From the NCBI GenBank assembly GCA_003024175.1, contig MDYQ01000353.1, positions 1-64,000 of the forward strand: DNA of 64,000 bases, read 5' to 3'. A program made the translations under genes and the position numbers. Shown here piece by piece: positions 422 through 56,784 of this stretch (its first letter is position 1; the number at the start of each line of letters is the position of its first letter). The stretch is from Planoprotostelium fungivorum (Eukaryota > Evosea > Variosea > Cavosteliida > Cavosteliaceae). The notes below the pieces were generated by a model. It did no database searches. It was given only the letters and a program-made list of their open reading frames with translations, and was not told the DNA's origin.

Positions 422-1758
422 TCACTTCTCAATGCACCATTTGACTACCAACCGGAAAAACCGAATCAAGTGACCATTTGAATGATACTGTATGGCCCAA
501 TTGTCCAATATACCATTGACATAGGACAGAACATGAGCCGGTTCGTCTGCCACGGGTGGTGGATCTCTTCTCGCCGTCGATTCAAATTGGGCTGAGAGCT
601 CCTCCATCGTCTGTAACAACCTTCGATTCCCCTTCTCGCAGATGTGATCCATGATCTCTGTCCAATCGATGTCTTCCGGACTCATCAATTTCTCTGATTC
701 GGTGTTGCCGCAGTGTGAACAGTGTCTGTATTCGATAGCACACATACCAGGTGCCTCATCTGACCACATCACTCGTCGTCTCAGCTTCTCGCCCTGCGGC
801 GTAGTCGTATAGAAGTATCTCTTCTGCAGCTTTCCTGTCACACTGTCAGCTACATCTTTCTCCTCCTTGTGTGCTGACACACACCTTGAGAGGGAACATT
901 ACAGCTCGACTTCCACTTGAAGCCGTCACTGCTTCCCGAAGGCAGAAAAGCTCCTCGATACACGTAGCAATAGACGCTGTTCGTGTCGGCCAAGAATTTC
1001 TCTGTGATGATTCAGTTGTTTGAAGGGAAATCGCTTCACCTGGTAATCTCCGTCTCTCTCTCGATGTGCATCGTGGATGATCTCTGGCGTAGAGGATCAA
1101 GTCCTCCACGAAGATCTCCCATTGACGTTTCGTCCAGCTCCTGTCTACACAAGGAGACAGTGGAGGGCTTAGGGAGCTTGATGAACAGGGGCTAAACGGG
1201 ATGGACACAGGGCTTGATAGAGGAAGAACGTCACCGGTGAGGATAGCATTGGAGGCATTGTAAAAAGAGGTCGGTTGCGCAGGTGCATCTTTAAGACTTT
1301 AATCATTTAAGAAAATGATGCTGATGTGACTCACTGCGTTTAGCACGCTTCGCAGTTACCACAACATATCGCTTGTCGGAAAGTTGGACCATTCTCAATC
1401 TGATGGTTGATTAGATCTCAAGAGGGTCCATTCGGCTCACTTTGTGTCAATGATTTGATCCGATGTCCTCAATGTGGCTTCTGAGGTGCCCCCTATCGTA
1501 CCCACTCGATCTACCGTCATCCAAAACTCGGACTGCGTGCTGCTTTCATGTGAGCGATCTGTTGGATCTCACACACTTCACGTACCTCTCATCCACCAAG
1601 ATATCTGACAGCAGCTCGCACGCCGAGTCATTCGACATCGTGATGCGGTGCGGCTCTTCCGAGCAGCATATGACCACTGTGGCCCTGTCGTCTGCCTTCA
1701 ATATCTGGAAGGCTGTCTCTTCCTCTCTTGTGATCGTCTGGCACCTCTGCCTCTTCAT
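422..1758 (-). CDS. Paralogue A: CG-1-like regulator, shortened copy (tentative)
   Basis: Multi-exon minus-strand gene starting MKRQ at 1758 and ending at TGA 422-424. The first exon carries the motif LKADDRATVV, followed by an Asn-Asp-x-Ala segment that loosely recalls a PAS fold. Later exons hold a WxKRQWEIFVEDL segment, then DGFKWK, then KRYFYTTTPQG...RRRVMWSDE...VEYRH. The last run resembles the CG-1 DNA-binding domain of CAMTA factors (DGxxWKK...YYxxxxxxxxRRxYW...LVHY), but the match is by eye and weak. Compared with paralogue B, the spacing between the first exon and the EFVEDL exon is much shorter, so this copy seems to lack internal exons. It is transcribed divergently from paralogue B across 445 bases. 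A real but unassigned gene or a decaying copy are both possible. Confidence 0.5.
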
Positions 1759-2203: not shown

Positions 2204-3998
2204 ATGAAACGGCAGAAACGATCAGACGATGGTCCAACCACGGAGGAGGAGGTTGCATTTACGGTCCTGAAGGCCGACGACCGGGCTACGGTTGTATTAC
2301 GATGCTCACCAACCCCAAACCGCATCGCCATGGTCAACGACGCCGCCAGGAGCCTTCTGTCCGATATTCTGACAGACGAGAGGTACCCTCCATCTTTCGA
2401 TGATGATATTGATATTCCACCTTCAGTTTACAGCCAGAATTTTGGAGGGCCGTAGACGGTGTGGGTAAATCGGGCGAACCTTCTGAGAGCTCGATGAAGA
2501 GTGGAGAGAACATCATCTTGGCAAAGTAGACATAATAATCGTCCGATCATGATTTGACCGACATCATAGATTACGGAGAGTCATGTTATCAGAGAAACCT
2601 TACATTGTGGTCACTGCAAAGAAGATGGCACCCCGGCCGATCGAAACCCCCCACTCAAATCCATTTCTCCCCCCGTTCGCATGGGATGAAAGCGTTCAGA
2701 ACACGCTCGACCTCTACACGGAAGCCATAGAGAACGATTTTATCTCTCAAGTGGCCGGAATGGACTCCATCTATCTCGCCCTGACCTCGGGGGTGAAGAT
2801 CTTGGATGCACTCTCGCTGATCTTGACCAGATGACCGAGGAAGGCACCGTCACCTTCCACGCCGTGAATCGCAACGTAGCCCACCATTTCGGTTGTCCTT
2901 TCCCTTTCCTCCTGAGAGGAAAGACTTCACGTGACTCTCCACCTCTGAGATTGTTCTGAAATGCTTCAGTTGATGTGGGGATGTCACCCACGGACATCTT
3001 GCAGATGGGACTCACCCACGCCAGACTCTACGACCCAGCGACGCAGAGATCGAGCTACACGTACACCATGATGGGAATGAACATGTACTGCGAGAACAAG
3101 ACGGTGAGTCGGTGACGCCTCTTCGTCTGATGAAGAGGCAGATCTGTCCGGGGGTCAATCTGTCACTCATCATCGCTCATCCGAGTGATGCAGAGCGTTC
3201 AATACCGTTAAAGTTGGATCCAGGTCAGTTAATTCCGACCAATCAACCTGTGAGGAAGTGGAACAAACATCAGTGGGAAGTGTTCCTCGAAGATTTTCTG
3301 TTATTTGTCAAGGAGAATTCTCAATACGCATCAAGGGAGAGGTGCAAGCTGCCAGGTACAATACGTAGATCTTCTCAGCTCACGCGATAACAGATGGCTT
3401 CATGGGTGACACGAACAGTGTCTTCTGTTACGTATACGTCGGTGGAGACTTCTTACCTTCAGGCATGAGCGACGGCTTCAAGTGGAAGTCGAGCTGTAAT
3501 GTTCCCTCTCAAGGTGTGTGTCAGCACACAAGGAGGAGAAAGATGTAGCTGACAGTGTGACAGGAAAGCTGCAGAAGAGATACTTCTATACGACTACGCC
3601 GCAGGGCGAGAAGCTGAGACGACGAGTGATGTGGTCAGATGAGGCACCTGGTATGTGCGTTGTCGAATATAGACACTTCTTACACTGTGGGAGCACCGAA
3701 TCGGACAAATTGGTGGGTCCGGAGATGATCGATTGGTCGATCGTGATCCATCACGTGAGCATCAAGGCCAATAACAGACTGCTGTCGACCATGGAGGAGA
3801 TCGTGAGTGCAAGTTGTGATGCCGAATTCAGCTCACGAGAGACAGAGCAACAATTTTGAGATGACGGCGAGGCAGAGTGAGCCACCACCGGCTGACGAGC
3901 CTGCGCACGTCATGACATACGTTAATGGTATATTGGACAATTGGGCTATACGATATTCCACTCAGACAACGACAAGCACGACCCGAAAACATTTATAA
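2204..3998 (+). CDS. Paralogue B: CG-1-like regulator, fuller copy (tentative)
   Basis: Starts MKRQKR at 2204 and appears to end at TAA just before 3999. Exons read, in order: the LKADDRATVV...NDAARSLLSDIL block; a block with SQVAGMDSIYLALTSG near 2740; HFGCPFPFLL near 2890; HARLYDP near 3020; NKHQWEVFLEDFLLF near 3270; VYCYVYVGGDFLPSG near 3430; and the CG-1-like KRYFYTTTPQG...RRRVMWSDE...VEYRH block from 3518. A last exon holds YVNGILDNWAI, also present in paralogue A. Positions 3471-3657 are identical to the reverse complement of 741-927, while the flanks have diverged. A likely intron near 3800 interrupts a region that is continuous in paralogue A. The product is probably a nuclear regulatory protein, but this is inferred from a weak CG-1 resemblance only. 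Confidence 0.5.
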
Positions 3999-4195: not shown

Positions 4196-5540
4196 ATGGT
4201 GGGAACGAATTCCCCTGCATCTGCTCCCGAGGGTGAGACGAGATCTGCAACCATCTACGAGATCTCTTCTGATCCTAATGCAATGATCCAAGGTTCAGAA
4301 CAATTAAACGAAGGAGAAACGACGGATCAGGGCGAACGACCCCATGATCCGCAGGTAATCGAGAGATCAAATCGGGAGGAGACTTACGTGAACGATCGTC
4401 CAGGAGAAATCATTACTGAACGCTTTCAGGATGAGACGGACGAAGAGTTTGAATTTAATTCTGACGTCGAAGATGATAGATCAAAAATGGATGACGATAC
4501 GAACGATAAGAGGTGAGATGGAAACCGAAAAGTCGAATGACGATGCATCAGACAAGACGTAAATCGCACAAAGAGAGCCTCCCCCAAATATTTCAAGGAG
4601 GAGATCATCGTGGCCCTGGAGAGGGCCTACAAAGAGGGCGGTATCCAAGATGCACAAGACATCGAAGATCTACAGGAGAGCACCGGCCTCACCAAACGAC
4701 AGATCCAGCAGTGGAAGAGTCATCGAAGACAAAAGGAGAAGAAGATGACCGTCACCACGACATCAGATCACGTTCCCACCACGAAATCTCATGTTGGCAT
4801 GACTGAAGCACAGAGGCTCAGACTCGTTCAAGAATACGAGAGAGATGGTAGAGAGTACATTCCCATCGAAGAGAGAGACTCTCTCGCTAGAGAGTTGGGC
4901 ATCACACACCGGAAAGTCACATGCTGGGTGGCCGCCAGACGCAGCCGCGACAGAAACCAGGGAGTCAGCAGGAAGAAGTGGAAGAAGAGGAGGAGAGAAG
5001 TCAGAGGAGAAGATGAAGAATACGGAACGAAGAGCAAGCAGAGGAGGAGGACATCAAGATACGAAGAAGAAGAAGAAGAAGAAGAGGAGGATCACACGAA
5101 CGATATAGAGGGAGAATATGAAGAGAGAAGGGAAGATTCGCAGGATGGCTGGGAGACGGTGAGTGCAGGAGAGAGAGAAGACTGAAGTAGAAGGAGGGAG
5201 AAGAGAGGAGAGACGACCCGAGCAGGATGCCTGAAGTCGTGGAAGAGAGGGACGAGAAGGAAGAGAAGAGAGAGAAGACGATGGTGAGAGGGAGAAGCAG
5301 GGAAGAGCTGAAGAGAGCAGGGAAGGATGGTCATGATGAGTGAGAACGTGATGAAGCAAGTGAAGATGCTGAGGATGACACCGAAAGATGACATCGATCA
5401 AATGGAGATGCAGGTAAAAGACATGATCACCTGGATGATGATGGAGAGATGAGAGACTCATCGCACGTCAGGTGATTGTGTTACAACAGCAGCTCGAGAT
5501 TCAGAGAAAGCTGGCCGAGCAGATACGCCAGGAACTATGA
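4196..5540 (+). CDS. Homeodomain array gene 1 (two homeodomains, coiled-coil tail)
   Basis: Starts MVGTNSPA at 4196. An acidic N-terminal part ends with the array signature EFEFNSD. Probable introns sit at 4388-4430 (phase 0, after a Tyr codon) and about 4514-4551. Homeodomain a (about 4588-4740) has helix 3 reading QIQQWKSHRR; homeodomain b (about 4799-4970) has KVTCWVAARR. The position of the nearly invariant Asn51 is His in the first and Ala in the second. A basic and Glu-rich stretch with an E run follows. Two small tail exons then encode MVMMSENVMKQVKML and LQQQLEIQRKLAEQI, a coiled coil shared along the array, ending at TGA 5538-5540. Likely a nuclear DNA-binding protein that dimerises through the tail. 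Some Glu/Arg-rich reading in the middle may be intron, so the exon structure between 5160 and 5280 is uncertain. Confidence 0.75.
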
Positions 5541-5793
5541 AGAAGGAAAATCTCACTTGCACAAACATTGGACAGTACGGAGGGAAGAATCAAGCTTGGT
5601 AAATAGACGAAAGATAGTATGTTGTCTTCAGTTCATCATCATCGATCATAGACCATGTACGAAAGATGGAAAAAGAAAAAGTGGGCGGTGTAGAGGAACA
5701 AGTTCAAGAACGGCTGAACGTTGGCTGAAACAGATGATTGGAGGCATCACGGGACGATCTCGAAGGTAGAACCATCCAACAATAGATACAGAA

Positions 5794-7051
5794 ATGATGA
5801 GCACATCGACTGAAGCAACCCATGCGAATCAATCAGATTCCACCATCACGCAGAAGGCACGGAAGCACCCAGCGACAAATTCCTTCACTATCATCTCATC
5901 ACCAAACGAATTCCCAACAGATACGGCAACAACAGATTCGAACAAAGAAGCTTATGTGAGAATCGACATCAGAATGCATCATGACATTAGAACAGGATGA
6001 AGACGAGGAGATCTACGAGTTCAATTCCGACTTTGAAGATCCAGACGGATCCAAGCCAGAGGAGACAGACATAGAGACATCGACTACATCTCCCACAGAC
6101 ACTCTACAGAAGGTCCACGTTCAGAGGCCACCCGGGAGGCGCCCCTTCTCGGTTCGAGTCTACGACAGTCTGCACGAAGCTCTCGCAAAATACAATCATC
6201 ACTTCTCCGATCACTTCGAAGAGCTATCCGAGGCCACCGGCCTCACGGCGAAACAGCTGCGAAAGTGGGAAAACAATCAGAGATGGAGATCGAGATCATC
6301 CGCTCGTGAAAAGTCCATGCGCGCCCACCACGCCACGAAAGGAACGGACACGAGTAAGAAGATGTCGGAGAGAGACAAGGAGAGACTCAACGCCGAGTTC
6401 ATGCGGGGAGGAAGAGAGGACATACCTCTATCGGAGAGGAGAGTTCTCGCCGTTGAGTTGGGCATCTCTCGGAACAGCATCAATGGGTGGTTGTCTGCCA
6501 GGAAGAGATATGGATTTAAACCGAGGGAGAAGAGAGATGACGATGACAGCGAGGGAGGAGAAGACTCGTTCGAGTTCACGACGGAAGAGAGGAGGGGAAG
6601 AGAAGAGGAAGGAAAAGAGGGAGAAGATGAAGAGGTGAGATGTGATGATGGAGAGAGGGTGAGACGGTGAAGGAGGGGCGGGGGAGAACGAAAGAAGAGG
6701 AGACGAATGGTAGAGTGTATAGAAGGAGGGAAGCGAGGGGAAGACAGCGAGAGCCCGAGATGATGAGAGAAGTGAACGAAGAGAGAGAAGAGAAGAGAGT
6801 CAAGATGATGGTGAGGGGAGGAAGAGGAGGGAGATTGAAGATGAGCAGGAAAGGATGGTGAAGATGACAGACATCGTCACTCAGCAAGCGAACGTGCTGA
6901 AAGTTACACCGATGGATGATCGAGAAGAAATGGAGTTGCAGGTGAGATGTGAAGAGGAGGTGACGATGACACGGGACAGATGAGCGTGTTGGAACGACAG
7001 ATTGAGATCCAAAAGAGGATCATGCAACAGATTCGCAGAGAGATGATGTAA
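5794..7051 (+). CDS. Homeodomain array gene 2 (two homeodomains, coiled-coil tail)
   Basis: Starts MMSTSTEA at 5794. The Ser/Thr-rich N-terminus is spliced, by a phase-0 intron after a Tyr codon exactly as in gene 1, to DEDEEIYEFNSD. Homeodomain a lies at about 6150-6300 and keeps Asn51 (QLRKWENNQR). Homeodomain b lies at about 6355-6520 and reads SINGWLSARKR, with Ala at position 51. An acidic, low-complexity stretch follows. The tail exons read VTQQANVLKVTPMDD and VLERQIEIQKRIMQQ, ending at TAA 7049-7051. The tail matches genes 1, 3/4, 5/6 and 7 in sequence and in intron position. The gene lies 253 bases after gene 1 on the same strand. Function is inferred as transcription regulation; the target is unknown. 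Confidence 0.75.
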
Positions 7052-7306
7052 AGATGAAGACAAACCGTCCACACGAAAAATGAAAGAAGGAACCGATGAC
7101 CTGAGACACGAACGGAAGAAAGACTTGTTTGAAATAAATAGAAGATGAAGAAGGCAGAAGGTTTATTTTAGGTGGTGGTTGGGTGTGGTGAAGAAAGTGG
7201 GAAAGTTTGTAGATGGGCTTATTTTAAACAAGGTGCGGGCACCATCGCGATGAAATCAACAGATCGCAATCCTGAAAAGATCGACCAGTGAGAATTGCTT
7301 TTGGAG

Positions 7307-9433
7307 ATGAGTGAATCGTCTTCAACCGTGGAAGGTGATAGTTTAGTCACGAACGTTGATCCTTACATGCGCACAGCCATGCCACCGGCGACGGACACCA
7401 TATCACCAGAAGAACCAAATAAATCTAGCACAACACAGGAAGAAACAACCGAGCCTATGGATCAGTCTTCTGACGCCACGAAACGTACCGAGGACCCCAA
7501 TGTAGAAGAATCATATGCGAGTGAACATGGATCAGAACCCTCCATCTGACATCGAATCAGGCCGATAGCGATGGGGAGTTCGAATTCAATTCCGACGTCG
7601 ATGATACTGAGAATACGATGGATGATATGAGGTGGAAGATCAAGAGAAATAAGGGACTGAGAGAACGTAGAGAGAGCAATGGCGGTTCCAGAGGATCGAA
7701 GCCAAGTTATACGGACAAAATCACAGACATTCTGGAATCTGCGTATGTTGACAATCGAATGTTATCACCGGAAGACATCAAGCTACTCGAAGAGGCCACT
7801 GGTTTAACGAGAGACAAGATCAAGTTGTGGAGACAGAACCGAAGGAGGAGAGAGCAGAGACGATATGATTCGGCCAAGCTGCCCCGATCTAGAAAGCCCG
7901 CGACTCTGTTGTCTGACGAGCAGAGGGAGAGACTAGAGGGAGAATACTATCGCGAGGGAAGATGTTACATCCCGCCCGAGGAGAGAGAGTTCTTAGCCAA
8001 AGAGTTGGGTCTCAAACACAGGAAGATCACAGACTGGGTCGCCGCGAGGAAGAGAAAGGACAGGAGGCAGCAAGAGGAGGGAAAGGTGGAAGAAGTGAAG
8101 AAGAGGACGAGTACGGATGAGAGGGGAGAGGATGGAAGGTTCAGAACTAGACAGAAGAAGGTGGAGGGAGAAGAAGAGGAAGAGGGAGACTCTGTACCGG
8201 AAGGAGAGGATGTCATGGTGAGTACAGAGTCTTTGCTCTTTGTGAATGTGAACGAGGATTTACACTGGAGACAGGAAGACGGAGAAGAGGAAGAATTCAA
8301 CTCAGATCCAGAATTCAACGAGAAGGGGTGGGTCATCCTCCAATGACGATCATCATCATCATCGTCCATCATGATGTCTGACGGACGCACAGCGGCCAGA
8401 GGAAGATCAACCGACATTACTTCTCCGAAGACATCACAGACATCCTAGAGAAGGCCTACGTAGAGAGCGAAGAACTCACCGAAGAAGAGATGAAAGAGCT
8501 CCAGCGATCCACTGGCCTCAAGCGAGAGCAGATCAGACGATGGAGGAGAAACCGAAAGTCGAGAGAGCAGAAGATCACTCCACAGAAGCCTCCCACCCCT
8601 CTCACCTTTCTACACGGCAGCAGACAGTCCACCCTGACGCGAGAGCAATGGGAGAGGCTCAGCGAAGCGTTCAGAGAGGGAGGAGAGGACATATCGACGG
8701 AGGAGAGGAAGAGCCTGGCAGAAGAATTAGGCATCACACACAGGAGGGTGACCTACTGGGTTGCCTCGAGGAAGAAGCAAGCGAGGAAAATGGAGGGAGG
8801 CACGAGGAAGGAAGAGGACAAGGGAGAAGGTGAATTAGTGAGGAGCTTGAGGAAGAGGAAGGGGGCGGAGAGGAAGGAAGAGGAGAGAAGTGAAGATGAA
8901 GAGACAGATGAGGTGGGAGGAAGGGAAGAGGAGAGACTGAACGATGTAGGATGAAGAAGTGAGGCAGAGCAAAGAGATCGAGAGGTTGAGAGAGGAGAGG
9001 AGGAAGAGACAGAGGAAGGAGGAGAGGAGGGAGAAGGCAATGGAGGAGAGGAGGGAGAAGGCAATAGAGGAGAGTAGGGAGAAGGCAATGGAGGAGAGTA
9101 GGGAGAAGGCAATGGAGGAGAATAGGGAGAAGGCAATGGAGGAGAAGGGTGAACCCGTGGAGGATCAGGCGGGGAAGAGAGAGAAGACGATGGTGAGAGG
9201 GAGAAGAAGGGGAGAGCTGAAGAGAGCAGGGAAGGATGGTCATGATGAGTGAGAACATCATACAGCAAGTGAACATGCTGAGGATGACGTCTATGGATGA
9301 TGGAGAGCAGATTGAGATGCAGGTGAGAAGAGGAGGAGAGAGGAGAGAATGATAGAGAGAACAGATGAAAGTGCTGGAACAACAGATAGAGATACAGAGG
9401 AAGATCATGGAGCAGATGCGTAAAGAGATGTAG
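7307..9433 (+). CDS. Homeodomain array gene 3/4 (four-homeodomain fusion)
   Basis: Starts MSESSSTV at 7307. The first intron (7517-7560) follows a Tyr codon at the conserved phase-0 site but begins GCGAGT, so it is a GC-AG intron. The signature EFEFNSD follows. Homeodomains at about 7710-7860 (IKLWRQNRRR, Asn51 kept) and 7890-8060 (ITDWVAARKR, Ala51) come next. Instead of a tail, splicing joins an acidic exon with EEEFNSD (8278-8326) to a third and a fourth homeodomain at about 8415-8575 (IRRWRRNRKS, Asn51 kept) and 8620-8800 (VTYWVASRKK, Ser51). An 8-residue REKAMEEx repeat and the coiled-coil tail VMMSENIIQQVNML...VLEQQIEIQRKIMEQ end at TAG 9431-9433. The internal EEEFNSD exon is the N-terminal signature of single members, so this is a fusion of two array genes. 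AATAAA-type signals follow at about 9486. Confidence 0.72.
9020..9150 (+). repeat. 24-base coding minisatellite (REKAMEEx units)
   Basis: About five in-frame units of 24 bases, each close to AGGGAGAAGGCAATGGAGG plus AG-rich bases, encode REKAMEER, REKAIEES, REKAMEES, REKAMEEN and REKAMEEK in the charged helix before the coiled-coil tail of array gene 3/4. A length that is a multiple of three keeps the frame open. Confidence 0.85.
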
Positions 9434-9662
9434 AAGAAAGATCCAAATAGAAAGATAAATATATAGGCCACACTGCTCCAGCAGAAATAAATAAACTTTG
9501 CGGGACGAGTTTCAATAGAACATCTAAATTGGTATGTGATGGTTCTCATCTACTGAGACACAAGAATTCGTGTTGGACTGATCCTATTGGGATTTATTAT
9601 CATTCCACCCTGTTGTAGACCGCCGGTAGGAACCGATCTGCACTGATCATCAGGGGCTACCG

Positions 9663-11921
9663 ATGACCGACCCAGAGCCAGATGGAGATGAAGTCTATGT
9701 GGGTCATCTACAACATCTGGTCCTAGCGTTCTGACGTTCGATAGGTCTCGATCGAGACGGATGACGAGTATGAAATCGGATCTGATCTGGATGATAACGA
9801 AGATGCGAACGATCTGAAGTGAGTCAGAAGCGAACATGACGAGAAGAGACGTGGTGATCGAATAATAGGGAAGATTCTAAACGTAAAGCATATGCGAACA
9901 GAACATTCTTCTCAGAGGAGGTCGTGGGAATCTTGGAGAAGGCGTTTCAACAGAGACTGATCCAATCTGTCGAGCACTTTGTAGATCTGCAACAATCCAC
10001 CGGATTGACAAGAGTTCAGATCAGACAGTGGAGAAACCACCGAAAGAGAAGAGACATCAACAAGATCGCGGATAAGAAGGAAGGAGAGCCGCCTCCAAAT
10101 CGATCTCATGCAAATCCAACATACACGGATCATCAGAGACAAAGGATGACAGAAGAATACGAGAAAGAAGGGAGAAACTACATTCCATCAGTGGAGAGAG
10201 AGACGTTGGCCAGAGAGATCGGTTTGACTCAGAAGAAAGTCACCGACTGGATCTCTACCAGAAGGAGAAGAGATCGAAACAAGGAGAAGAGGGAGAACAT
10301 AGTGAAACCTCCGAATAACGAAGCGTTTGTAAGTCAATGGATCGATGATACATCATATCATATGCATGTCTACAGTCAAGTGATGGACGATGAAGATACT
10401 GAGAGAAGACAGGATGACTCGGACAACTCCGACGATGCCAATGAAGATGACATGATGGACGACAGCAGTGGAGCGAGGTAAGGGAGACAGTTGAGAATAC
10501 CAAAGTGAACGAAACAAAGGGATTCCAGTCAGAAAGAACAACGCTACGGTAGCCGATTCTTCTCCGAAGACATCATCAAAGCTTTAGAGAGCATGTACAG
10601 TGACGAGCGAGAGATCTACACCGAAGAAGAAGTTCAGAGCCTCATGCAGATGACTGGACTGCAGAGGAAACAGATCACAAAGTGGAGATACTACACCCGA
10701 ACGAGGAGAGAACAGACGAGAGATCAAATTATGAAAGACTTGAAAGAGCAGAAAGAGCAGAAGGAGCAGAAGGAGCAGAAAGAGCAGAAGGAACAGAAAG
10801 AGCAGAAGGAGCAGAAAGAGCAGAAAGAGCAGAAAGAGCAGAAGGAGCAGAAAGAGCAAAAGGAGAACATCTCACCACTCAGAACATCTGGAAAGCGTCC
10901 AGAACTATCAGAGGAACAGAAACGGAGGCTGAAAGAAGAATACGAATTGGATGGAAGAGGAGACATACCCACCGAAGAGAGGAAGGATCTCGCCGACCAA
11001 CTTGGTATCACACGAAAGAGGGTGACCAATTGGGTGGCAGCGAGGAGGAGCAAAGATAGAGACCTTCTGAAGAGGGAGGAGTTGGACAAGTGTGCGGAGG
11101 TGAAGAGGAGAGAAGAGGGAGAGGGGGGTGTCAGACAGACGAGGAAGAGGAAGGAGATGGATGTGGAGGAGAAGAGGAGAGAAGAGGAGAGGAGGGAGGA
11201 GGGAGAAGAGGAAGAGAAGAGAGAGAAGGAGAAGAGGGGAAAAGAGAAGAGAGAGAGGAAGGAGAAGGAGAAAAAAGAGAAGGAGGAGAAGGAGAAGAAG
11301 GAGAGAGAGAAAGAGGAAATGAGAGAGAAGGAGAACAAAGAGAAAGAGCAGAACAGAGAGAAAGAAGAGAGGAGAGAGGAGGAGAAGGGAGAGAAGGAGG
11401 AGAAGGGAGAGAAGGAGAAGGGAGAGAAGGAGGAGAGGAAAGAAGAAGAAACGAGAGGAGAGAGAGAAGTTAGAGTAGAAGAGAGAAGAGAAGAGGAGAG
11501 GAACGGGGTGAGGAGAGAGAGAAGGAGAAGAGAGTGACAGTGGACTAGGAAGAACCGAATACGATCAGAAGTGAAGAAGGAGGGAAGCAAGACAAGAGGA
11601 AGAGACAGAAGACCATAGAAACTGACGCTGGATTCAGCGAGCGAAGAGAGAAGACGATGGTGAGAGGGAGAAGAAGGGGAGAGCTGAAGAGAGCAGGGAA
11701 GGATGGTCTTGATGAGCGAGAACATCATGCAGCAAGTGAACATGCTGAGGATGACGTCTATGGATGATGGAGAGCAGATTGAGATGCAGGTGAGAAGAGG
11801 AGGAGAGAGGAGAGAATGATAGAGAGAACAGATGAAAGTGCTGGAACAACAGATAGAGATACAGAGGAAGATCATGGAACAGATGCGAAGGGACGAAGAG
11901 GAGAGGAACCGACTGAGATGA
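9663..11921 (+). CDS. Homeodomain array gene 5/6 (four-homeodomain fusion)
   Basis: Likely start MTDPEPDGDEVY at 9663. A phase-0 intron after the Tyr codon leads to an acidic exon reading DDEYEIGSDLDD, and a further intron leads to homeodomain a near 9890-10050 (IRQWRNHRKR, His51). Homeodomain b lies at about 10120-10290 (VTDWISTRRR, Thr51). An acidic linker ending DDMMDDSSGA is spliced (intron about 10480-10531) to a third homeodomain at about 10545-10700 (ITKWRYYTRT, Tyr51). A run of KEQ triplets separates it from a fourth at about 10905-11060 (VTNWVAARRS, Ala51). A very long Glu/Lys/Arg helix-like region follows. The tail exons VLMSENIMQQVNML and VLEQQIEIQRKIMEQ end at TGA 11919-11921. The tail block is nearly identical in DNA to that of gene 3/4, introns included. 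The exact joins around 11540-11650 are unclear. Confidence 0.7.
10740..10862 (+). repeat. 9-base coding minisatellite (KEQ repeats)
   Basis: A tandem array of AGAGCAGAA or AGAGCAGAAGG-type 9-base units, giving more than a dozen Lys-Glu-Gln triplets, lies between the third and fourth homeodomains of array gene 5/6. It keeps the frame and probably varies in length between strains. Confidence 0.9.
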
Positions 11922-12082
11922 GAGGAAAGAAAAACGGGAAGAGAAGGTAAATAGAAAAGAGAAGCTACCGCGCCATTTTCGTCCCTGAATCGATGATCAT
12001 CATAAATATCTGTTGTAATTGACATACATCCGTACTAGTGGTTGTAGTTTCTATTGCGATCTGGTGCACCATCATCATAACA

Positions 12083-13316
12083 ATGGTTTCCACACACAGC
12101 CCGCTGCTGATAGAATTAACAGCAGCACTGAAAGCTGAGCTCCCCACAGTCAGATCTTTGGGCGGTGCGAGGAGAGCTTTGGGCAAGAGGCTATCGCTGC
12201 TATCTGAGGAGGGTGAGACCTTGGCATATGTTGCTTCTCATCGAATCAGAGTGCCAACGATTGGACGATAGCAAACCATTGCCGGAATCATTGCAGACGA
12301 AGGACAACTCCATCAGTTGGGACATATTATACGCTCTCGCCGGACATCATCCCAAATTGAAACTCTGGGCAAAGCTTTATGGAGGTATGAATCGCATCAT
12401 TCCCCCCTGGTTTACAATCAGAAAAGCACCCTCACCTGTCTCTCCTCATTCAAAAGTTAGACGCCGAAAAGCAGCGGCTGAAACGAAATAGGTACGAGCA
12501 ATCGCGAAAACAGAATGCTATTGCAAAGATGAATGGGTGAGAGCTTAGCCGGTCATTCACTAAGAAGTGACAGCGAAAATAATTACCTCACCGATGATTC
12601 AGAAATGGAAGAAGGAGAGATGATGGGATGTGCACTGCCGACATCTCACGCTGATTCAAATAGTCCCATATCGAAGTCGAAGGATATCATAAGAGATGAA
12701 CCACAGCAGGCGTTACAGATGCACTCTCCAACCGAAACCGGTGACATCCATCTCATCATCGAGATGTATCATCTCGAACGTGACACTGATCCCAGCAGAC
12801 TTCACCACGAAGGAGAGAACAGATGAAAGTGCGCATGCGGATGCCGTGATGTCTTGAGAGGAGAGAGAAGGAGGAGCTCCAAAAGCACAGAGAAGAGAGG
12901 AGAGAGAGAAAGAGGATGCAAAGAGTCATGATCGCGAGGAAAGAACAAGAAGAACAGATATCGGATGACCAACATCAAATACAAGTACAAATCCCACACG
13001 AGAGGAGAGGAGTGGAGGAACAGAAGGACGAGAGGAAAGAGATCGAGAAGGATGAGAGGAAAGAGAAAGCCATGGTGAGATGATGGATGATGATGAGACA
13101 CTGAAGACGAGACAGAATCGAATGGTCATGATGAGCGAGAACCTCGTCCGACAGATTGAAATCTTGAGGCTCATACCGAGAGACGAGAGAGAGCAAGTAG
13201 AATCACAGGTGAAGAGAGAGAAAGAGGAGATGAATGACATAGAACAGATGAGAGTGCTAGAGCAGCAGATCGATGTACAGAAGAAGACCATCCAGCAGAT
13301 GTTGAGAGAAGTATAA
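12083..13316 (+). CDS. Homeodomain array gene 7: tail-only relative
   Basis: The 3' half clearly belongs to the array. A charged helix ends KEKAM before a GTGAGA intron, then MVMMSENLVRQIEILRL and, after a second possible intron, MRVLEQQIDVQKKTIQQML end at TAA 13314-13316. No homeodomain could be found upstream. The 5' part from ATG 12083 reads HSPLLIELTAALKAELP and then an unresolved set of small exons, and a TDDSEMEEGEMM acidic segment near 12597 resembles the acidic leader of the others. It could be a dimerisation partner without a DNA-binding part, or a member whose homeodomains were lost. Exon structure from 12180 to 12560 is not settled. Confidence 0.5.
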
Positions 13317-15331: not shown

Positions 15332-17593
<2,262 letters not shown>

Positions 17594-20401: not shown

Positions 20402-21857
20402 ATGTCGTGTATGTCTTCTCATTCTATCGACAGCCATGACCTGGGTAAGTCGAAGAAGGGTGAAGCTATCACCCCAGCCAGCTACTCCTTCATCGATGAA
20501 TGATTCATCCAGGTCGAACATGCAACAACCTCCCAGGCCTTCGGTGGGTTACCATCCTCTCTGCCTTTGTTAACACGACTTACAGAGTTCAATCACCGAC
20601 ACCTCGATCAGGGATGGAGAATGGAAGAACCGTGGCACCCCCATGCAACAAGATGGAGGACATCCTTTCACGTCTCGCACGGACGTTTCGATGATTGGAC
20701 CCCAGACGGCCCCACAGGTGAGTTCACATCTCTCATCTTTCACCTTACGTCTGCAGACGATCACCCAATGGACTCAAACCCAAACGTCCACCGTGGTAAA
20801 TTCACTTCTTGTCTTCTCTTCTCACATTCGCAGGAGATGAGAGAGCATGGAGCTCTTACAGCGGTGACTCAGACATCTTCTACCAGCACGACTGTGAGAG
20901 GATAGAACGAAGAAGTGAGATTGAAAGAACGAGCAGGTAGTGGAAGCAGAGCCAGCGGATACGTTCGAAACGGCGGGGGATAGAGATACAGCACCCAAAA
21001 TCGTCTATAAGCCGAGATGGGAAGCCAAAACGAAGGAGGTCGTGGAAACACTGGAGAGAGCGTACAAGGAGAGACCTTTCACTGTGGAAGAGATACGAGA
21101 GCTGCAAGAGGCAACGGGTCTCAGCACAGACCAGATCCGAAGATGGAATTATGATAGGAAGAGAAATGGCAAGCCCAAAGCAACGCGAGTGGGTCTCACG
21201 GACAACCAGTGGCAGAGACTGAGTGAGGAGTTTCACAAGGATGGAAGAGAGTGGATACCGGTGGAAGAGAGACAAGCTTTGGCCGAGGAGTTGGGTCTAT
21301 CACAAGAGAAAATTTTACATTGGACGAGACATTCGAGAAGCAGGGGGAGTGGAAAGAAGATAGGAGGAGAAGAGAGAGAGGAAGAGAGAGAGAATCATAA
21401 GAAGAGACCGAGAGAGAAAGAAGAAGGAAGGAAGACGAGAGGACAGAAGAGGGAGAAGGAGAACAAGAAGGCAGAGGAGAAGAGCGAGGAAGAGAAGAAG
21501 AGAGAAGAGGAACAGAAGAAGAAGGAAGAAGAGGAGAAGACAGTACAGAGGAAGAAGGAAGAAGAGGAGAGAGAGAGGAGAGAGAAGGAAGAGGAAGAGA
21601 AGAGGAGGGAAGCGAACAAGTACAAGGGCATGTGTGAATACGAGGTGAGAGGGAAGATAGAGAAGAGGAGACTGAGAGAAGAGGAGACTGAGAAGAGGAA
21701 CAGATACAGAGAGCGAAGCGTATCGAAGAGAACAATCGGTTTCTCGAGATGCTTCAACTGCCCTCCCTTCTCAACAAGAAGAAGACAGGAAGACGATAAA
21801 GATGATGATGATCACATGCAAATAGAAAGAACGTTCGAATCGATTCTTTCCATGTGA
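20402..21857 (+). CDS. Outlying double-homeodomain gene (array relative)
   Basis: Start at ATG 20402 or 20411. A Ser/Thr/Gln-rich leader made of four or five short exons joins, by a phase-0 GTGAGA intron (about 20892-20936), to EPADTFETAGDRD. Homeodomain a lies at about 21015-21170 (IRRWNYDRKR, Asp51) and homeodomain b at about 21190-21345 (ILHWTRHSRS, His51). A long Glu/Lys/Arg-rich region follows and the frame runs open to TGA 21855-21857. The coiled-coil tail of the array is not recognisable. Domain order and homeodomain sequence (ERAYKE, ERQALAEELGL) are closest to the array at 4-13 kb, which lies on the same strand, 7 kb and four genes away. The missing Asn51 in both domains makes ordinary TAAT-core binding doubtful. 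Confidence 0.75.
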
Positions 21858-24900: not shown

Positions 24901-26824
24901 CTTCTCCAAATCATTGATCTACAACGGTCAATCTCTCATTCCCTTCACATTTCTCACCTGCTCGTTTGTCGATCGACCAGTAGGCTTGTTTCTAAACTTG
25001 AGAACATTCTGTATCCTCTGTTTTCCTTCAATTTCATCTATCTACAACGAACCATGACGAAATTTCACCTGCATTTCGTTGTTGAGACCCGAAATGACAG
25101 AGTTCAGCTGATCGATCGTCTCGTGGCTCTCTTCCAAGCTCTTGCGGTAGTCTCCATTACGCATAGTGCAAGATAAAATCAGCTTCTCCATCTCTGTGAT
25201 TCTGTCGGCAGGAAAATCTTGGGTCGAAACGGGGACGTAAGTCACTGTGCGAGGTCAGAGGTGAAGAAAGAATAAAACGAAATAAAAGATGATGGACGAT
25301 CACATTGTGCGTTGTGGAGCTTCTGCTTCAACTGTTGGATTTCGACTTGAAGGGCGGCGATGCCTCCGGAAGTGTCTTCATTCAGAGTGATCTGTTCGAG
25401 TCAATCTCCCTCCCTTCTCATCATCTCACTTGGTTCTTAATCAGCTTGGCCCTCTGTGCAAATTTGAGGGTGGACAGTGTCTCCGCGTAATGGATGTCTG
25501 AGGGACTGACCGTGGCAATCATCGTACACTTACTGTTTCCGCCAAGAGAATCCTATTCCGTTCAGCCTCGAGACAAAAAGAAGAGACACTCACCCTCAGG
25601 AAAAAAGTCAACTTTGAATCACGATAGGCAACGTGTCTAGATAAACCAGTTCCAACGTCAACGAGAGCTCGGATGACATTGCCCAGGGCAGAGAGGGACT
25701 TGTTGATGCTGCCCGCCTCTTTCAGTCTCACGCCGGTGGCGTCTGTGTTCTTCTGTCTCTCTGAACCAGCCAGATCGATGATGTTGAGCTTGGACGTCTT
25801 GATGGACGTGACGCTGTTGCGGCTCTCGCGAGATTGGATGGAGAGAGTTAAGACAGAGTGAGAGCGAGAGGATTCAGAGTTGGCGGCGGTGGACCCCACT
25901 TTTCGATTGAAATTACCCGTTCGGATGAGCTGTGATGGAGGTGAATCGATGATGGATGGTGATGGAGGTTGGAGATGATGATGGATCACCTGGAGTGCGT
26001 CTTGGACGGTCGTGACTCGCTCTTGCACGAGATTTTCGACGTAGACACCCGATCTCATGTCTTCTCTGATGTCTGATTGTAATGAGTCGAATGAGACGAT
26101 GGCACGAGAGGAATGACTCACTCAGGCCGTGATCTGATGGATTCAAGAGATCCGTGATGTGTTCATTGTAGATCTCAAAGTACGAACACTTGCACAGAAA
26201 CTCGACACCCTTCGAAGAGATCAGAAGAGGAGAAGACAGATGATGGCTCACGTTTCTCTCGGCTCGACTGGTGTGAACAAAGATGTACTCTAATACTCGG
26301 GCTACGAGTCCTCTCTGAGGGTGCGGCACAGCGTCATCACTATCCACTCCACCGATGGTGAAGGTCTTACCACTTCCAGTCTGTCCATAAGCGAAGATGG
26401 TTCCGTTGTATCTGGAAATGGATGTCGGAACAGAGCAAAATAGAGGGAGTGACGGAGGAAACATACCCTGAGAGACATGTGTCTGTGATCGGCTTGGCGG
26501 CGTCGATGAAGATGGATTCCTGAGTCGAGTCCTCTCCTGCGATCCAATCGAAGGTGAAGGCCTTATCTCCATGAACTCGGACCATGTTGGCATTGGTATC
26601 CACTGTGATACATTTTTTACCGTTGACACTGAGCTCTTTCGAGTTCATCGGTCGAACACGAACGCATACCTAGATTAGATTAGACGACGAAAGATTCGTA
26701 CTATTCATGATGCCACCTTGATATTCTCTGTTCCAGCCCTCTCCATGATGGCGGTCAGATGCGGTCGTTTGTTGATTTGAATTTCTGTGATGCCCACTTT
26801 TGCGCGGGAAAACATCTCGATCAT
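21922..26824 (-). CDS. Kinesin, kinesin-12 (KIF15)-like, with long coiled coil
   Basis: N-terminal motor domain: the first exon ends [10 protein letters not shown], continuing [14 protein letters not shown]. Then come [20 protein letters not shown] (P-loop), [22 protein letters not shown] (switch I), [12 protein letters not shown] (switch II) and [19 protein letters not shown]. The neck, with [17 protein letters not shown], leads to [19 protein letters not shown], which closely resembles the KIF15 neck region. About 3 kb of short exons encoding almost unbroken coiled coil follow. The C-terminus reads [17 protein letters not shown] and ends at TAG 21922-21924. The start could be ATG 26824, 26815 or 26747. 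Likely a plus-end motor acting on the spindle. Introns carry many TCTACAACG-type words. A TTTTGCGCGGGAAAA word (26798-26812) lies at the 5' end, and a MITE sits 23 bases upstream of the outermost start. Confidence 0.9.
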
Positions 26825-28160: not shown

Positions 28161-28652
28161 CTGATCTGAGAGTTACGCACGCTCCTACAACCCACCAGCG
28201 GACAGATTGTTCTCATTCATCGATCTTCGGCAGCACACATACCCTTTCCTCGTTTTACCTCATTGAATCCGGTGAAATGACAGAGGTGAGCTTGATCACG
28301 ATTAATCATCATCACAAAGACATGTTGCACTAGTCAATAGCCACCCTTGTCAGGTTATCAGAGTGAAGTCTTCCCTTCTGTCCATGTTACATATAGATCT
28401 TTCCTCCATCCTTTCATCATCATCACTCGTTGCTCCCGATCTAGCGTCAGGCGGCAATCGGTGTGCGACACCTGGTGTCAATCACTCCACAGCTTGGTCG
28501 TATGAAGATTTACCCTCCAGCGGAAATTTGGATTGTCTTCCATTTGCTGGACTATTCCAACGTTTGGAAGCCACGCTATCCCTCTCCTCTCTCTCATAAC
28601 GAACACTGTCTGTAACACTACACCAACAACAACACTAGTACCAATAAATACG
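28161..28652. other. Intergenic promoter region between TRMO and the peptide precursor
   Basis: These 490 bases separate two divergent genes. A CT-rich tract and CACCAACAACAACACTAGTA lie just before the precursor start, as a likely 5' leader. No coding region is supported. Confidence 0.4.
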
Positions 28653-30145
28653 ATGAGCCGTATCCTCTTTGCCGTTCTCGGCTTCGCACTCTTGGTCTCA
28701 GCCGACACTACCAACAACATTCTCAACGGTTCCCCCGTCACCCTCTTAAAGAACGGCATCCTCAACGGTGTCCTTCCCCAATCTCTCACCAGAAGGTCTC
28801 ACACCGAGAACAACATCCTCAATGCATCGCCCGTCGGAGGTTTAGATGAGGGCATCCTCAACGGACTCCCTCTTAGCGGCCTCGGCGGCCTCGGTGGCTT
28901 CGCTGAGAAGAGACAGCAACCTCTCGGTTTCCTCTCTGGAGGTCTCCTCCGTGATACCCCCGTCAACTTTTTGGGAGAGGGTGAATTAGAACATGCACGA
29001 TGATGGTAGCTGATGCGAGCAGGTGTCTTGACTCAGGGTGTTCTCAACGGTGCTCGCTTGAAGAGAGATCTGTCCAACAACATCCTCAACGGTTCCCCCT
29101 TCAACATCGCTCAGAACGGTGTCGCCATCGGCCGTCCCTTCTCTCCCTTCTTCAAAAGACAAGTCATGTCCGCCGTCGAGGCCGTCTTCAATGCCATCGA
29201 TGGCGAGTCCGAGGACTTCAAGAGAGGAATCTCTGGTGAGTCTCTCTCCCACTCTTCCCCTCACGTGACGTGCAGTTAACCACCTATCAGAAGACACCAC
29301 TACCAACTTCCTGAACGGCTCCCCCGTCAACGCCGAAGGTCTCCGCGTCGAAAACGTCCAAGTCCTCTCGAACAACCGTTACGGATTCCCCTCCAAGAGA
29401 TCCAGCACCACCAACAACGTTCTCAACGGCTCTCCCATCAACCTCGTCCAACACGGAGTTGCCAACGGCCTCTTCTCCCCCGTCGAGGGTCTCTTGAGCC
29501 AGAACAAGCGCTCTCCCTTCGGTGATGTCCTCACTGACGGTCTCTTACGCAGCCTCTTCCGCGGAAAGGGTGAGTCGTCTTGACATCTACAACCGTCTCT
29601 GATGACGATCATCAGGAATCGCCGCCACCACTTCTTACGGCTCTCGCGTCTACGTCCACGCCGACATCGCAGCCAACATCGCCATCGATATCCCCACTCA
29701 GAACGGTCTCCTCTCTTCTCTCTCCTCCATCGCCGGCGGCATCGTCTCTCTCGGCAACTTGGTCTCTGCCTCTCCCTCTTCCACCGCCTTCTTGTCCATC
29801 AAGGCCGACGCCGACGTCACCGTCAACATTGGTATCGCCGCCGACCTGAAGGTCACCCTCCCCGCCGGCTGCTTCCCCCTCTACACCTCCGACTCCCTCT
29901 TCGGCTCCGCTCAGCTCGGTGTCCGCGTCCAAGTAGAAGGAGAGGCCAACGTTGCCGCTGCCCTCGTCACCCCCGTCTTAGACGCCAGCGTCGGCCCCAC
30001 CAAGGTTGGAATTCTCAAGGTCATCGACTCCGCTCAGAGCACCTTTGCTTCTCTGCCCGTTGCCGTCGAGGCCGGCCGTATCGTCGCCCACTTGGGAGAC
30101 GATTGCAACGGTATCTACATCTTTGTTGGAATCCAGACTAACTGA
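28653..30145 (+). CDS. Secreted repeat proprotein with dibasic processing sites
   Basis: Four exons (28653-28980, 29023-29235, 29291-29569, 29616-30145) join in frame to give 449 residues. Residues 1-17 (MSRILFAVLGFALLVSA) are a signal peptide. From 18 to about 254 the chain is divided by RR at 47-48 and KR at 86-87, 123-124, 154-155, 176-177, 216-217 and 253-254. The segments between share the motif NNILNGSPV or close variants (FLNGSPV, NVLNGSPI, NILNASPV), often followed by a second NGI/NGV-type half. The C-terminal 180 residues form a separate Ala/Val-rich domain with two Cys residues (GCFPLY, DDCNGIY). The architecture is that of a Kex2/furin-processed multi-peptide precursor, as in fungal KEP or RiPP precursors and animal neuropeptide precursors. 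No homologue was recognised and no modifying enzyme lies next to it. Codon usage is strongly biased towards C-ending codons, suggesting high expression. Confidence 0.85.
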
Positions 30146-40654: not shown

Positions 40655-43600
40655 ATGAAGATCTTGTACCTCTTCAGCTTGTTCTTGACGCTCGTCTCTG
40701 CAGGTGATCTGATTCACAACATTCCGACTCATCCATTGACGAATCGTAAGATGATTTCTTCAATGATTGGTCGAGTTTCTTCAATGAATCAGCAGTAGAC
40801 ACGAGTTCTAAAGGCTTGGGTATATCAGCCATTATTTCGGGCGGTGCCTTCGTTGTCGGATTTCTGATCTTCATCATCGCCAGAGACCTCCGTAAAGACT
40901 TCTTCGCTCCGAAATTATCCACCTCTTTGTGAGTTCTTCTTTTGTGATCGAGGGTTTATGATTGTGTGATTGACATCACGGCAGCCGAGATGGAAAGACC
41001 GATGAGGGAATGAGATTCATCGGGTGGATATGGAACGTCTGGATGTATCGAGAGGCGGACATCTTCTACAAACAAGTCGGCATGGACGGTTACATGTACC
41101 TCCAATTCTTGAGAGTGAGTCCTCCATATCATGATGCACCCAATCCGACCCTCGATCAGTACAGCATGGTTTTGTGTATGTCCATGGGCATCTTGGGCCT
41201 TGCCATCATCACACCCATCAATTACCTGGGACAGGTACTCTCCTCAACATCATGTCATGTGATTCTGCTTCCGTCTGACGATTTCCATCAGAATAAAAAC
41301 GAAGTGGACACACCGTCACAGACGGTTGGCCTCGACACGATCTCCATGGCAAACATCCAAAACGGTGACGTCACAATCGTCTCTCACTCTGATCTGATCA
41401 TCAATCAGGAAATCGACTGTTGTACGTACATTACGTCTCTGTCTTCCTCTTCTCTGCCTTCGTGTGGTTCTTCATCTACAAATTGTTCCGCTCGGTAAGG
41501 CTAATTCCCTCGAGTCGAAATTATATATCAAAATCTGGATATTTCAAGTTGAAACGTTCGAGTTGAAATCTCATGTCGACCATTGTGATGAATTTGAATA
41601 GGCTGTACTGTGTCAGATCGGTGTCAGTAAACCAGATGGCATTCTACAACGCTCCGTCATCGTCAAGGACTTACCCCCCGATGTATCGGGGTGAGAAGAT
41701 AATCTTCTCTGAAATTTCCGACCCCACTCACCCCTCCCAGGAGTGCCAAGAACATTCGAAAATATTTCGAGCGAATGTACGGGAAAACTTCGGTTCACAA
41801 CGTTCTACCTGTCCCTAGGCTAGACAGACTGAGTGAAGCACAGAACGAGAGGGCAGATGCAGTGAAGGAGAAGAAGAGGATGGAATACAGAGTGAGAGTG
41901 GGAGCAGAGGATGGGCTCGTGACGATCGGTGGAGTGTTTCCGTTCAATCGATTTCCGAAGAACAAAGAGAATCGATTGTTTGGTCAGAGGGTGAGTGATC
42001 ACCGTCGTCATCATCCTCATCATGATCTTCATCGTGATGCACATTCTGATCGCTTCATCATTCAACACATGACGATCACGATCACATCATCTGACATCAT
42101 CCTCATCCATCGTATGACATCATCCTCATCATTCTCATCACGATCATCCTCATCCATCGTATCGCTTCATCATCTGCGACACGATGATCACAATCACATC
42201 ATCGTGGTGATCGAGAGTGACAGGTGAACGGATTACAATATTGGAAGAAGAAGATATCAGATCTCAATTCGAAAATTCTAGAATTACAAAAGAAAGAGGT
42301 GAGCGACTCACCATCCGAGTGGTAACCATCTTTAGAACATAAGAGGAAGCTATACAGATCATGCATTCGTCTGTTTCAGAACGGTTGGCATCTCTCTATC
42401 TGCTCAGCAGGTGAGATTCAATATGCAATTACATATTCTTTATTTGAGGATTAATTTATATCGTGGAGCGTTGTAGATGACCAAAATCAGAGTCTAATGA
42501 ACATCAACTCTTCCACCTCCGTGGTGTCACGAGCTCCCCACCCGAGTGAGTTCTACACCGTTGTAGATCGTCTCAATTCATTGCGAGGCAGAGAACATCC
42601 ATTGGACAAATCTGACCATCCCCTATTGGCAGAAGATGATCCGCCTGGTGATTCACATTCATCTACAACGTTGTAGTCTGACAGATCTAGTTCGTCTGTT
42701 ACGGAGTATTACTCGGATTATTCATCACGTGGTTCATTCCCGTAGCAATCATCTCCCTGGCAACTCGTCTAGGTTCGTCCATCTACAACGAGTCAGATAC
42801 AAATTCAATATCGCAGATAATATCGCCAGGCTCAACGCTTCGTTGGCACAGACCATAGAAAACAATCCGTTTTTGGCTGGCGCCATCAACAGCTTCCTTC
42901 CTACTCTGGCGTTCAACGTCTTCATCTTACTCTTACCTCATGTCATTCGATGTGATGTCTCAAAAGATGTCTTATCAACTGATCGTGGTTCAGATGTGTT
43001 GTCGTTCGCGGGAATGTTTCGATTCTCGAACGCAGACAAACACTTGATGATCTTCTATTGGTTGTTCTTGTTCTTCATCTCCTTCTTGGGTTACCTCTTC
43101 ACGGGTGAGTCATCTACAACGCGCCAGCTGAAATTTCCAGGATCTTTCGTCCTCGTGGCACAAATATTCGTGACGGACCCAGTCGGAGCGATCAATCAAT
43201 TGGGCAGCGTCATCGCCAGGCAGGGTGCCTACTTCGCCAACTACGTCATACTGCAAGGATGGGGTGAGCGTTGTAGATGAGTCCCAAAAATTTGAGACTC
43301 CGCCCAGCCGGTTCCATTATTTTCGGCATCGCTCGGTTGGACGAGTTCATCATCATGATGATTAAGAGGAGGTTCTTCTGTGTCACAGAAGAAGAGAAGA
43401 AGGAGGCTGATATACCGAGCGTCTTCTCTTATGGCATCAATTATCCGAGACAGCTGTTGGTTCTACTCATCGCCATCGTGTACAGCAGCATGGTGAGGAG
43501 GAAGCATTTTATTTCATTTTATTGTTTCTGATGGGGGCAGGCACCTTACGTGACTGCGTTGTGCTTCACGTATTTTCTAGTCAGTTATTTCTCTGCGAAA

Positions 43601-56144: not shown

Positions 56145-56784
56145 TCACGACGATGATGAGCTCGACCCAGGATCGTCAGACATATCTGGGCCCTTTGACG
56201 AATAGTTTCTGACCCACAGCCTCAACTTCTCTCTCGAAATGTTCAACTCTTCGGACAACCTCTTCCTCTCTTCTTTCGGTATACACATGCGATCATCGAG
56301 GTGATACGATTCGAAGAGTCTCTGGTACTGCTCTTTGGTGAGATAGTTCCTCGTCTTCTTGGGTGGTCCTATCCTCTTTCGGTTGTCCCTCCACTTTTGG
56401 ATCTGTTGGGGTGATAGACCCGTCGTGTCTACCAACCTCTTCCTCTCTTCGGTTGACCATCTCCTTTCGTTCTTGAGAAAGGAGTCTTCTAAAACGTCGA
56501 TCACAGAAGAGGGATAGCTTCTACGATGGGAACGCGATGATGATGTCACCTGCCAACACGATCATTGAACTGATTGCGCTATCAGTGCTCACCTCTGAGA
56601 AGGAAGAGAATATTGTTGGTGATCGGTCTTCGTATTCTGAATCCATTTTCCTCTTCTTCGATTGGTGATGGGTCACTATATCTTCTTCAGATGCAGTTCT
56701 GTCGTCCTCTCTCTTCGTAGACGGTGAACTCTGTCTTTCGTTTCTCACGGGGTCCTCTTCAGTCAAGAGAGCCTGTGGTATCAC
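56145..56784 (-). CDS. Double-homeodomain gene on the opposite strand (array relative)
   Basis: The upstream exon reads EEDPVRNERQSSPSTKRED and HHQSKKRKMDSEYEDRSP. A phase-0 GTGAGC intron follows, then TSSSRSHRRSYPSSVIDVLE. Homeodomain a has IQKWRDNRKR with Asn51 kept; homeodomain b has YLTKEQYQRLFESYHLDDR and LRLWVRNYSSKG with Asn51 kept but Arg52 and Arg53 replaced. A Ser run ends the protein at TGA near 56145. The true start is not settled: the frame is open to 56784 without an ATG near its top, and ATG 56643 is an internal option. It lacks the coiled-coil tail. It is the relative with the most standard position 51. Confidence 0.7.

Follow-up and report, generated by a model that had tools for sequence, protein, structure and literature searches.

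Double-homeodomain families with rapid turnover are already known from mammals and nematodes. For one of them, HOCHOB, the part of the source available to us states that orthologues were not found outside the genus Caenorhabditis (PMC4448998). Double homeobox genes in Dictyostelium are mentioned in the accessible part of a review (PMC4901127). In Acanthamoeba 25 homeobox genes have been counted, the excess being mostly Wariai homologues, and the accessible part of that report describes no double homeobox genes (PMC4053784). Here we describe a 64,000-nucleotide stretch of contig MDYQ01000353.1 from Planoprotostelium fungivorum, referred to below as the window, in which an array of neighbouring same-strand genes lies at positions 4196-13316. 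With a probability of roughly 0.6, we read the array as a family of divergent double-homeodomain transcription factors that expanded in tandem and has a common assembly or cofactor tail. This reading draws on paired homeodomains (HDs) that match Pfam profiles, on introns that recur at the same places from gene to gene, and on a C-terminal tail found in every gene of the array.

The array and its gene models

The window is eukaryotic and gene-dense, with many very short introns. Spliced frames from ATG to stop could be drawn by hand for five genes (g1 to g5) at 4196-13316, all on the + strand and separated by gaps of 161-255 bases. Splice sites were placed by hand at matching positions, on the basis of the sequence of one haplotype. 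The full architecture, comprising an acidic leader, one or two HD pairs, a charged stretch and a C-terminal tail, was found in four of the five genes. The first two, g1 (4196..5540; 6 exons, 377 amino acids) and g2 (5794..7051; 5 exons, 367 amino acids), each have one leader with the motif EFNSD, one HD pair, a charged region and the tail, the pair in g2 being the most diverged of the array. The larger g3 (7307..9433; 8 exons, 599 amino acids) has two modules of EFNSD plus HD pair ahead of its charged region and tail, and g4 (9663..11921; 7 exons, 663 amino acids) has two HD-pair modules, a long charged region and the tail. The last gene, g5 (12083..13316), was drawn in three alternatives of 305-318 amino acids, which differ in one uncertain intron. 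It consists of an N-terminal part with no detectable homeodomain or Pfam match, a charged region and the tail.

The initial annotation had proposed five consecutive same-strand genes forming a divergent tandem cluster that encodes homeodomain proteins, and the hand-drawn models bear out both proposals. Its further claim that all five genes share an EFNSD-type leader applies to g1, g2 and g3 (twice in g3); the corresponding motif in g4 is EIGSD, and g5 has merely a loose acidic stretch. Likewise, one or two HD pairs are present in g1 to g4 and undetected in g5, where the homeodomain profile scored -16.9 in full and -1.0 for its best domain. Since no homeodomain is detectable in g5, four genes rather than five have the full architecture. 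The N-terminal part of g5 (191 residues) showed no Pfam match up to E 1. Nevertheless, g5 keeps the charged region, the tail and both tail introns. BLASTP comparisons of g3 and g4 with g5 covered 75 and 84 residues (E 1e-18 and 3e-20, respectively), in part over low-complexity sequence.

We counted 28 introns in the models of g1 to g4 and in alternative A of g5. Their lengths are 35-65 bases in 27 cases, the uncertain one measuring 95, and 27 begin with GT, with a single GC in g3. Retention would break the frame or add a stop in 24 of the 28 (20 are not multiples of three and 4 contain an in-frame stop), leaving four that are readable through: the first of g1, the second and third of g3, and the last of g5. 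The recurrence of intron positions and phases between genes is better evidence for the models than the open frames. All four HD genes have a phase-0 intron following a Tyr codon, as GC-AG in g3 and in a readable-through copy in g1; the initial annotation, which had this intron recur across the array, was correct for these four genes and not for g5. A second phase-0 intron precedes the charged exon in the same four genes. Between leader and HD1, the first homeodomain of a pair, a phase-2 intron is found in five of six modules; g2 lacks it, and for the first g3 module it is uncertain. The two tail introns, one before each tail exon, occupy the same places in phase 0 in all five genes, as had been proposed. 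The second HD-pair cassette of g3 (8218..8949) is flanked by phase-0 introns at 8218-8274, which is readable through, and at 8913-8949. Because it lies between two phase-0 introns, this module is duplicable without a frame shift. For g4, no intron could be placed upstream of the second module by hand modelling.

Some sequence within the array is repetitive. The charged region of g3 holds a 24-base in-frame repeat at 8992-9145. In g4, a 9/18-base in-frame repeat at 10742-10865 lengthens the linker between HD1 and the second homeodomain (HD2) of module b, and its length may differ among strains. Over positions 10001-12000 the coding strand is strongly enriched in purines (GC skew 0.45, AT skew 0.58), probably owing to the charged stretches of the array genes, which are rich in Lys, Glu and Arg.

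Paired homeodomains and their helix-3 residues

Overall, eight exons in the window hold two homeodomains each, six in the array and two elsewhere, and in all eight the adjacent pair forms the unit. The two dispersed copies are the open frames g6 (20925..21857, + strand), which also has a charged region, and g7 (56145..56561, - strand); no tail was found near either. Five of the six array exons matched the Pfam profile PF00046 with E 7e-17 to 2e-5, and the sixth matched PF05920 with E 4e-8. Seven of the eight paired exons, with whole-exon scores of 24.7-61.4 bits, exceeded the cut-off of PF00046 (22.9 bits). The exception, module b of g4, was unmatched by PF00046 up to E 1 and scored 33.4 bits against PF05920, whose cut-off is 24. 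The exon of g2 is borderline, with 24.7 bits for PF00046 and 24.0 bits for HTH_3, both barely over the cut-off. The domains that had been annotated as homeodomain-like are thus better called Pfam homeodomains, with g2 borderline and module b of g4 falling under PF05920 instead of PF00046. In FastTree phylogenies all eight HD1 copies formed one clade (local support 0.984), and g6 and g7 grouped together in the tree of pairs (local support 0.954).

An AlphaFold2 model of the g3b exon, computed with eight aligned window sequences as input, had a mean predicted local distance difference test score (pLDDT) of 73.3. The ten-residue blocks spanning 21-60 and 91-130 reached pLDDT 91-96, and each domain folded into three helices. 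Foldseek searches with this model gave seven matches at E <=0.001, namely the engineered tandem engrailed structure 6m3d and six DUX4 double homeodomains (E 8e-6 to 3e-4). Tandem engrailed and DUX4 likewise came out on top in a sequence profile search of the PDB. Single homeodomains superpose closely on the model, for example 1du0 with a root mean square deviation (rmsd) of 1.0 A.

Canonical homeodomains have a helix-3 signature of W48, F49 and N51, of which Phe49 and Asn51 are core or DNA-contact residues. All 16 paired homeodomains retain W48 and none has F49; position 49 is K, E, R or N in HD1 and V, L, I or T in HD2. Asn51 occurs in four of eight HD1 copies (g2, g3a, g3b and g7) and in one of eight HD2 copies (g7). 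Within the array it is lacking in three of six HD1 and in all six HD2 copies, the latter having Ala, Ser or Thr instead. In all six array HD2 copies, three or four of the residues 52-55 are still basic. Counted between positions 20 and 48, HD1 differs from the canonical number of residues by -1 to +1, and HD2 has two extra residues in seven of eight copies and one in the eighth. As an internal control we used a single canonical homeodomain exon of the same window (52197-52427, - strand; PF00046, E 5e-17), whose WFQNKR motif contains the WFQN signature, unlike the 16 paired homeodomains.

Contig scans with single-protein HD-pair queries, which are sensitive to close relatives alone, gave no confirmed relative: among viral contigs, the g3a pair had 19 pattern matches, none confirmed, and the g6 pair had none, while among prokaryotic genome contigs none of the 93 pattern matches of the g1 pair was confirmed. 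None of the titles and abstract openings that we met in the open-licence literature describes this gene family, which is not evidence that it is unpublished.

The common C-terminal tail and a conversion-like tract

A two-exon tail is present in all five genes, and each gene has its own tail exons. The tails lie at 5321..5540 in g1 (phase-0 intron 5414-5471), at 6849..7051 in g2 (phase-0 intron 6942-6979) and at 13116..13316 in g5 (phase-0 intron 13209-13247, readable through); those of g3 and g4 are treated below. When g5 was compared with g1 to g4 by BLASTP, the last 53-54 residues gave E 5e-13 to 3e-16. No sixth copy was found when profiles built from the five tails, whose matches to those same tails are therefore circular, were run against the six-frame translation of the window; the next matches had E 1.3 and 2.3. 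The 53-residue tail had no Pfam match up to E 1. Alternative splicing of several genes into one common tail exon was ruled out by the separate tail exons.

We quantified how alike the tails are relative to the homeodomains. Over 53 residues, tail identity between genes was 45-66%, and 90% for g3 and g4. Within the array, identity was 23-45% for HD1 and 28-56% for HD2, so that the ranges of tail and HD2 overlap; within each of the six gene pairs among g1 to g4, however, tail identity exceeded every HD1 and HD2 comparison of the same pair. Nonsynonymous divergence (dN) was 0.20-0.39 for the tails, excluding g3 and g4 (0.05), against 0.50-0.86 for the HD pairs (15 comparisons among the six array modules). 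The proportion of nonsynonymous differences (pN) was below that of synonymous differences (pS) in all 28 HD-pair and all 10 tail comparisons. For the HD pairs, synonymous divergence (dS) was undefined in 16 of the 28 comparisons and ranged over 1.3-2.7 in the remaining 12, and therefore gave no useful dN/dS. The pN and pS comparisons showed no sign of positive selection, being a weak test with dS mostly saturated.

The tails of g3 and g4 lie in a tract (9178..9420 in g3, 11645..11887 in g4) with 4 mismatches in 243 positions, including both introns. The introns are identical at 37 of 37 and 42 of 42 positions, and the exons at 90 of 93 and 58 of 66, the differences lying toward the 3' end. Around the tract, ungapped 20-base windows match at 5-12 of 20 positions, and the gapped alignment immediately upstream at 30 of 60. 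Introns as alike as exons, together with the sharp edges, argue for a recent gene conversion of the g3 and g4 tails. The first tail intron (5284-5320 in g1, 9193-9229 in g3, 11660-11696 in g4) matches at 35-37 of 37 positions among these three genes, and around it (5271-5350) g1 agrees with g3 at 76 of 80 positions, with likeness decaying downstream. If this intron were retained, the frame would shift and the tail would be lost; the likeness may stem either from conversion or from regulated splicing.

We also scored hydrophobic periodicity against 5000 shuffles, taking the best of four angles on both sides. For tail exon 2, all 22 residues of which were scored, p was 0.03-0.45; for tail exon 1, of which the first 22 were scored, it was 0.40-0.76.

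Readings of the array and comparison with known systems

The features described above support homeodomain proteins that share a C-terminal module, and they point to a candidate expansion of transcription factors belonging to this lineage. In the reading that we favour, each HD pair stays together as a unit, and the g3 cassette flanked by phase-0 introns could be duplicated in frame, to give one or two pairs per gene. The tail stays alike, probably at least in part through gene conversion, while the HD pairs diverge. Each pair may bind a composite DNA site via its basic third helices, and the absence of Phe49 from all 16 homeodomains and of Asn51 from most HD2s could confer an altered specificity. 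The tail might act as an oligomerisation or cofactor-docking module through which paralogues with different heads assemble together, and g5 as a non-DNA-binding partner recruiting or dampening the others.

Several points weigh against this reading. The models behind it rest on sequence, with hand-chosen introns and predicted DNA binding; because introns were picked to open frames, the open frames are not independent proof. The double-homeodomain matches of the g3b model superpose with rmsd 8.7-17 A and TM scores of 0.26-0.28 of the query, so that the match covers single folds in series and not their arrangement, and the predicted TM score of the model itself (0.37) means that the relative placement of the pair is not reliable. 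Profiles of bacterial helix-turn-helix domains also match some exons, and exceed the cut-off for HTH_3 in g2 and for HTH_Tnp_1 and MerR_1 in g7. The HD2 copies form no resolved clade against the single outgroup in the FastTree analysis. With Phe49 and Asn51 missing, specific binding to DNA may no longer be possible for some HD2s. Instead of conversion, unequal crossing-over or a recent partial duplication could account for the g3/g4 tract, or its introns might be under constraint. The partner role of g5 is conjectural. Finally, the shared coiled-coil tail of the initial annotation held with respect to the tail, which is common to all five genes, while one of ten periodicity tests fell below 0.05 and the other nine were not significant; a dimerising coiled coil is thus plausible and weakly supported.

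The residues of HD2 bear on an alternative that is compatible with the favoured reading, in which HD2 serves for protein interaction or clamps DNA non-specifically and the pair reads DNA by HD1 alone. Ala, Ser or Thr in place of Asn51 in all six array HD2s, their extra residues between positions 20 and 48 and the better conservation of HD2 than of HD1 within the array (28-56% versus 23-45%) would fit it, but the same six HD2s keep three or four basic residues at positions 52-55, and HD1 likewise lacks Asn51 in three of six array copies. We consider this division of labour a tentative option, somewhat short of an even chance. A plainer account would be an ordinary, mostly neutral tandem family of old and recent duplicates, with g5 and g2 degenerating and a tail of no special role. 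The strong divergence of g2, the absence of a homeodomain from g5 and the in-frame tandem and low-complexity repeats agree with such decay. By contrast, all five genes allow open frames whose introns match, pN stays below pS throughout, and the tail is retained even where homeodomains are absent, and we regard the neutral account as unlikely.

Two further readings concern cell identity. The array could be a mating-type locus or one controlling the haploid-to-diploid transition, with dimerising homeodomain proteins whose partner combinations set sexual identity. Such transitions are under homeodomain-protein control in several lineages, according to the available part of one source (PMC5580921), pairing could run through the common tail, and the yeast MAT alpha2 homeodomain is among many matches (E 0.003 with the g3b exon, 1e-6 with the pair profile, fold ranks 32, 33 and 47). 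However, Engrailed, DUX4, CDX and BarH fit the pair profile as well as or better than MAT alpha2, tail-based recognition would need variable tails where here the tails are alike and it is the DNA-binding heads that differ, and the window has paired-HD genes beyond the array as well, at 20.9 and 56.1-56.6 kb. A mating-type role is possible, but no finding favours it over a general transcription-factor expansion, and we rate it as improbable. A bolder combination, to which we give equally low credence, would be a diversity-generating locus with constant tails and variable heads. Phase-0 cassettes would duplicate and diverge, conversion would keep the assembly tail common, and any head, as well as a headless partner, could join one combinatorial complex setting cell identity, possibly mating or kin type.

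Elsewhere in the window, an inverted repeat (596-954 and 3444-3802; 84% complementary over 359 bases) lies inside two copies of one gene, with open frames at 422-898 (- strand; unmatched in Pfam at E 0.01) and 3500-3859 (+ strand; unmatched at E 1). Bases 1-103 are identical to 682-784. To the right of the array there is a tandem repeat with 16-base spacing (15847-15974). Pfam matches mark a kinesin motor (25519-26121, - strand), an RSN1_7TM channel (42567-43280, + strand), ankyrin repeats (48308-48718, - strand), a zf-4CXXC_R1 domain (50818-51234, + strand) and a MYND finger (53852-54175, - strand). Open frames at 28506-30145 contain repeated ILNGSPV-like motifs, and the one at 29606-30145 was unmatched in Pfam up to E 1. 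Neither Rfam at gathering thresholds nor ARAGORN gave a hit in the window.

The comparisons below refer to the parts of the cited sources that were available. The mating-type proteins MatA and MatB of Dictyostelium also have homeodomain-like folds, and their C-terminal tails hold the functional difference (PMC5580921). They differ in being 107 amino acids long, each having a single homeodomain-like core and a mostly unstructured tail that is not the same in the different types (PMC5580921), whereas the models of g1 to g4 have 367-663 amino acids, two or four homeodomains and a common tail. MatA was not among the best 60 of 214 PDB sequence matches or the best 50 of 412 fold matches. The double homeobox genes mentioned for Dictyostelium (PMC4901127) are a further possible parallel in a protist. 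The basidiomycete bE and bW are homeodomain proteins that likewise work by dimerisation, but there recognition depends on the pairing of proteins from different mating types (PMC5871698), while in the array the shared tail is alike and the DNA-binding part varies.

Among animals, the mouse Obox cluster and Crxos resemble the array as a greatly diverged tandem homeobox cluster with a double-homeodomain locus (PMC5787275). They belong to an animal lineage, and a common converted tail is not described, nor the term gene conversion used, in the available text (PMC5787275). DUX4 shares tandem homeodomains and an arrangement in tandem arrays (D4Z4; PMC12376486), and with the engineered tandem engrailed it gave the best matches to the g3b model; the pairs in the window differ in having no Phe49 and often no Asn51, and, unlike the retrogene DUX4, the array genes are modelled with several matching introns. 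HOCHOB (Caenorhabditis CEH-91, -92 and -93) differs in the conserved cysteines of its linker of ~17 residues (PMC4448998), there being no cysteine in the eight linkers of the array and dispersed pairs, and the available part of its description does not mention a common tail (PMC4448998). It is alike in its two divergent homeodomains, which act as one unit that is duplicated within a protein, in the loss of the WF motif from the first homeodomain and in the extra loop residues of the second (PMC4448998). The same design may have arisen separately in this small-intron eukaryote, whose comparable family has diverging heads, tails that look homogenised by conversion, atypical recognition helices and one member with the tail alone. 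It would add material on how often homeodomain expansions serve life-cycle control, and the array could be a natural test of how transcription factors vary their binding yet keep one assembly surface.

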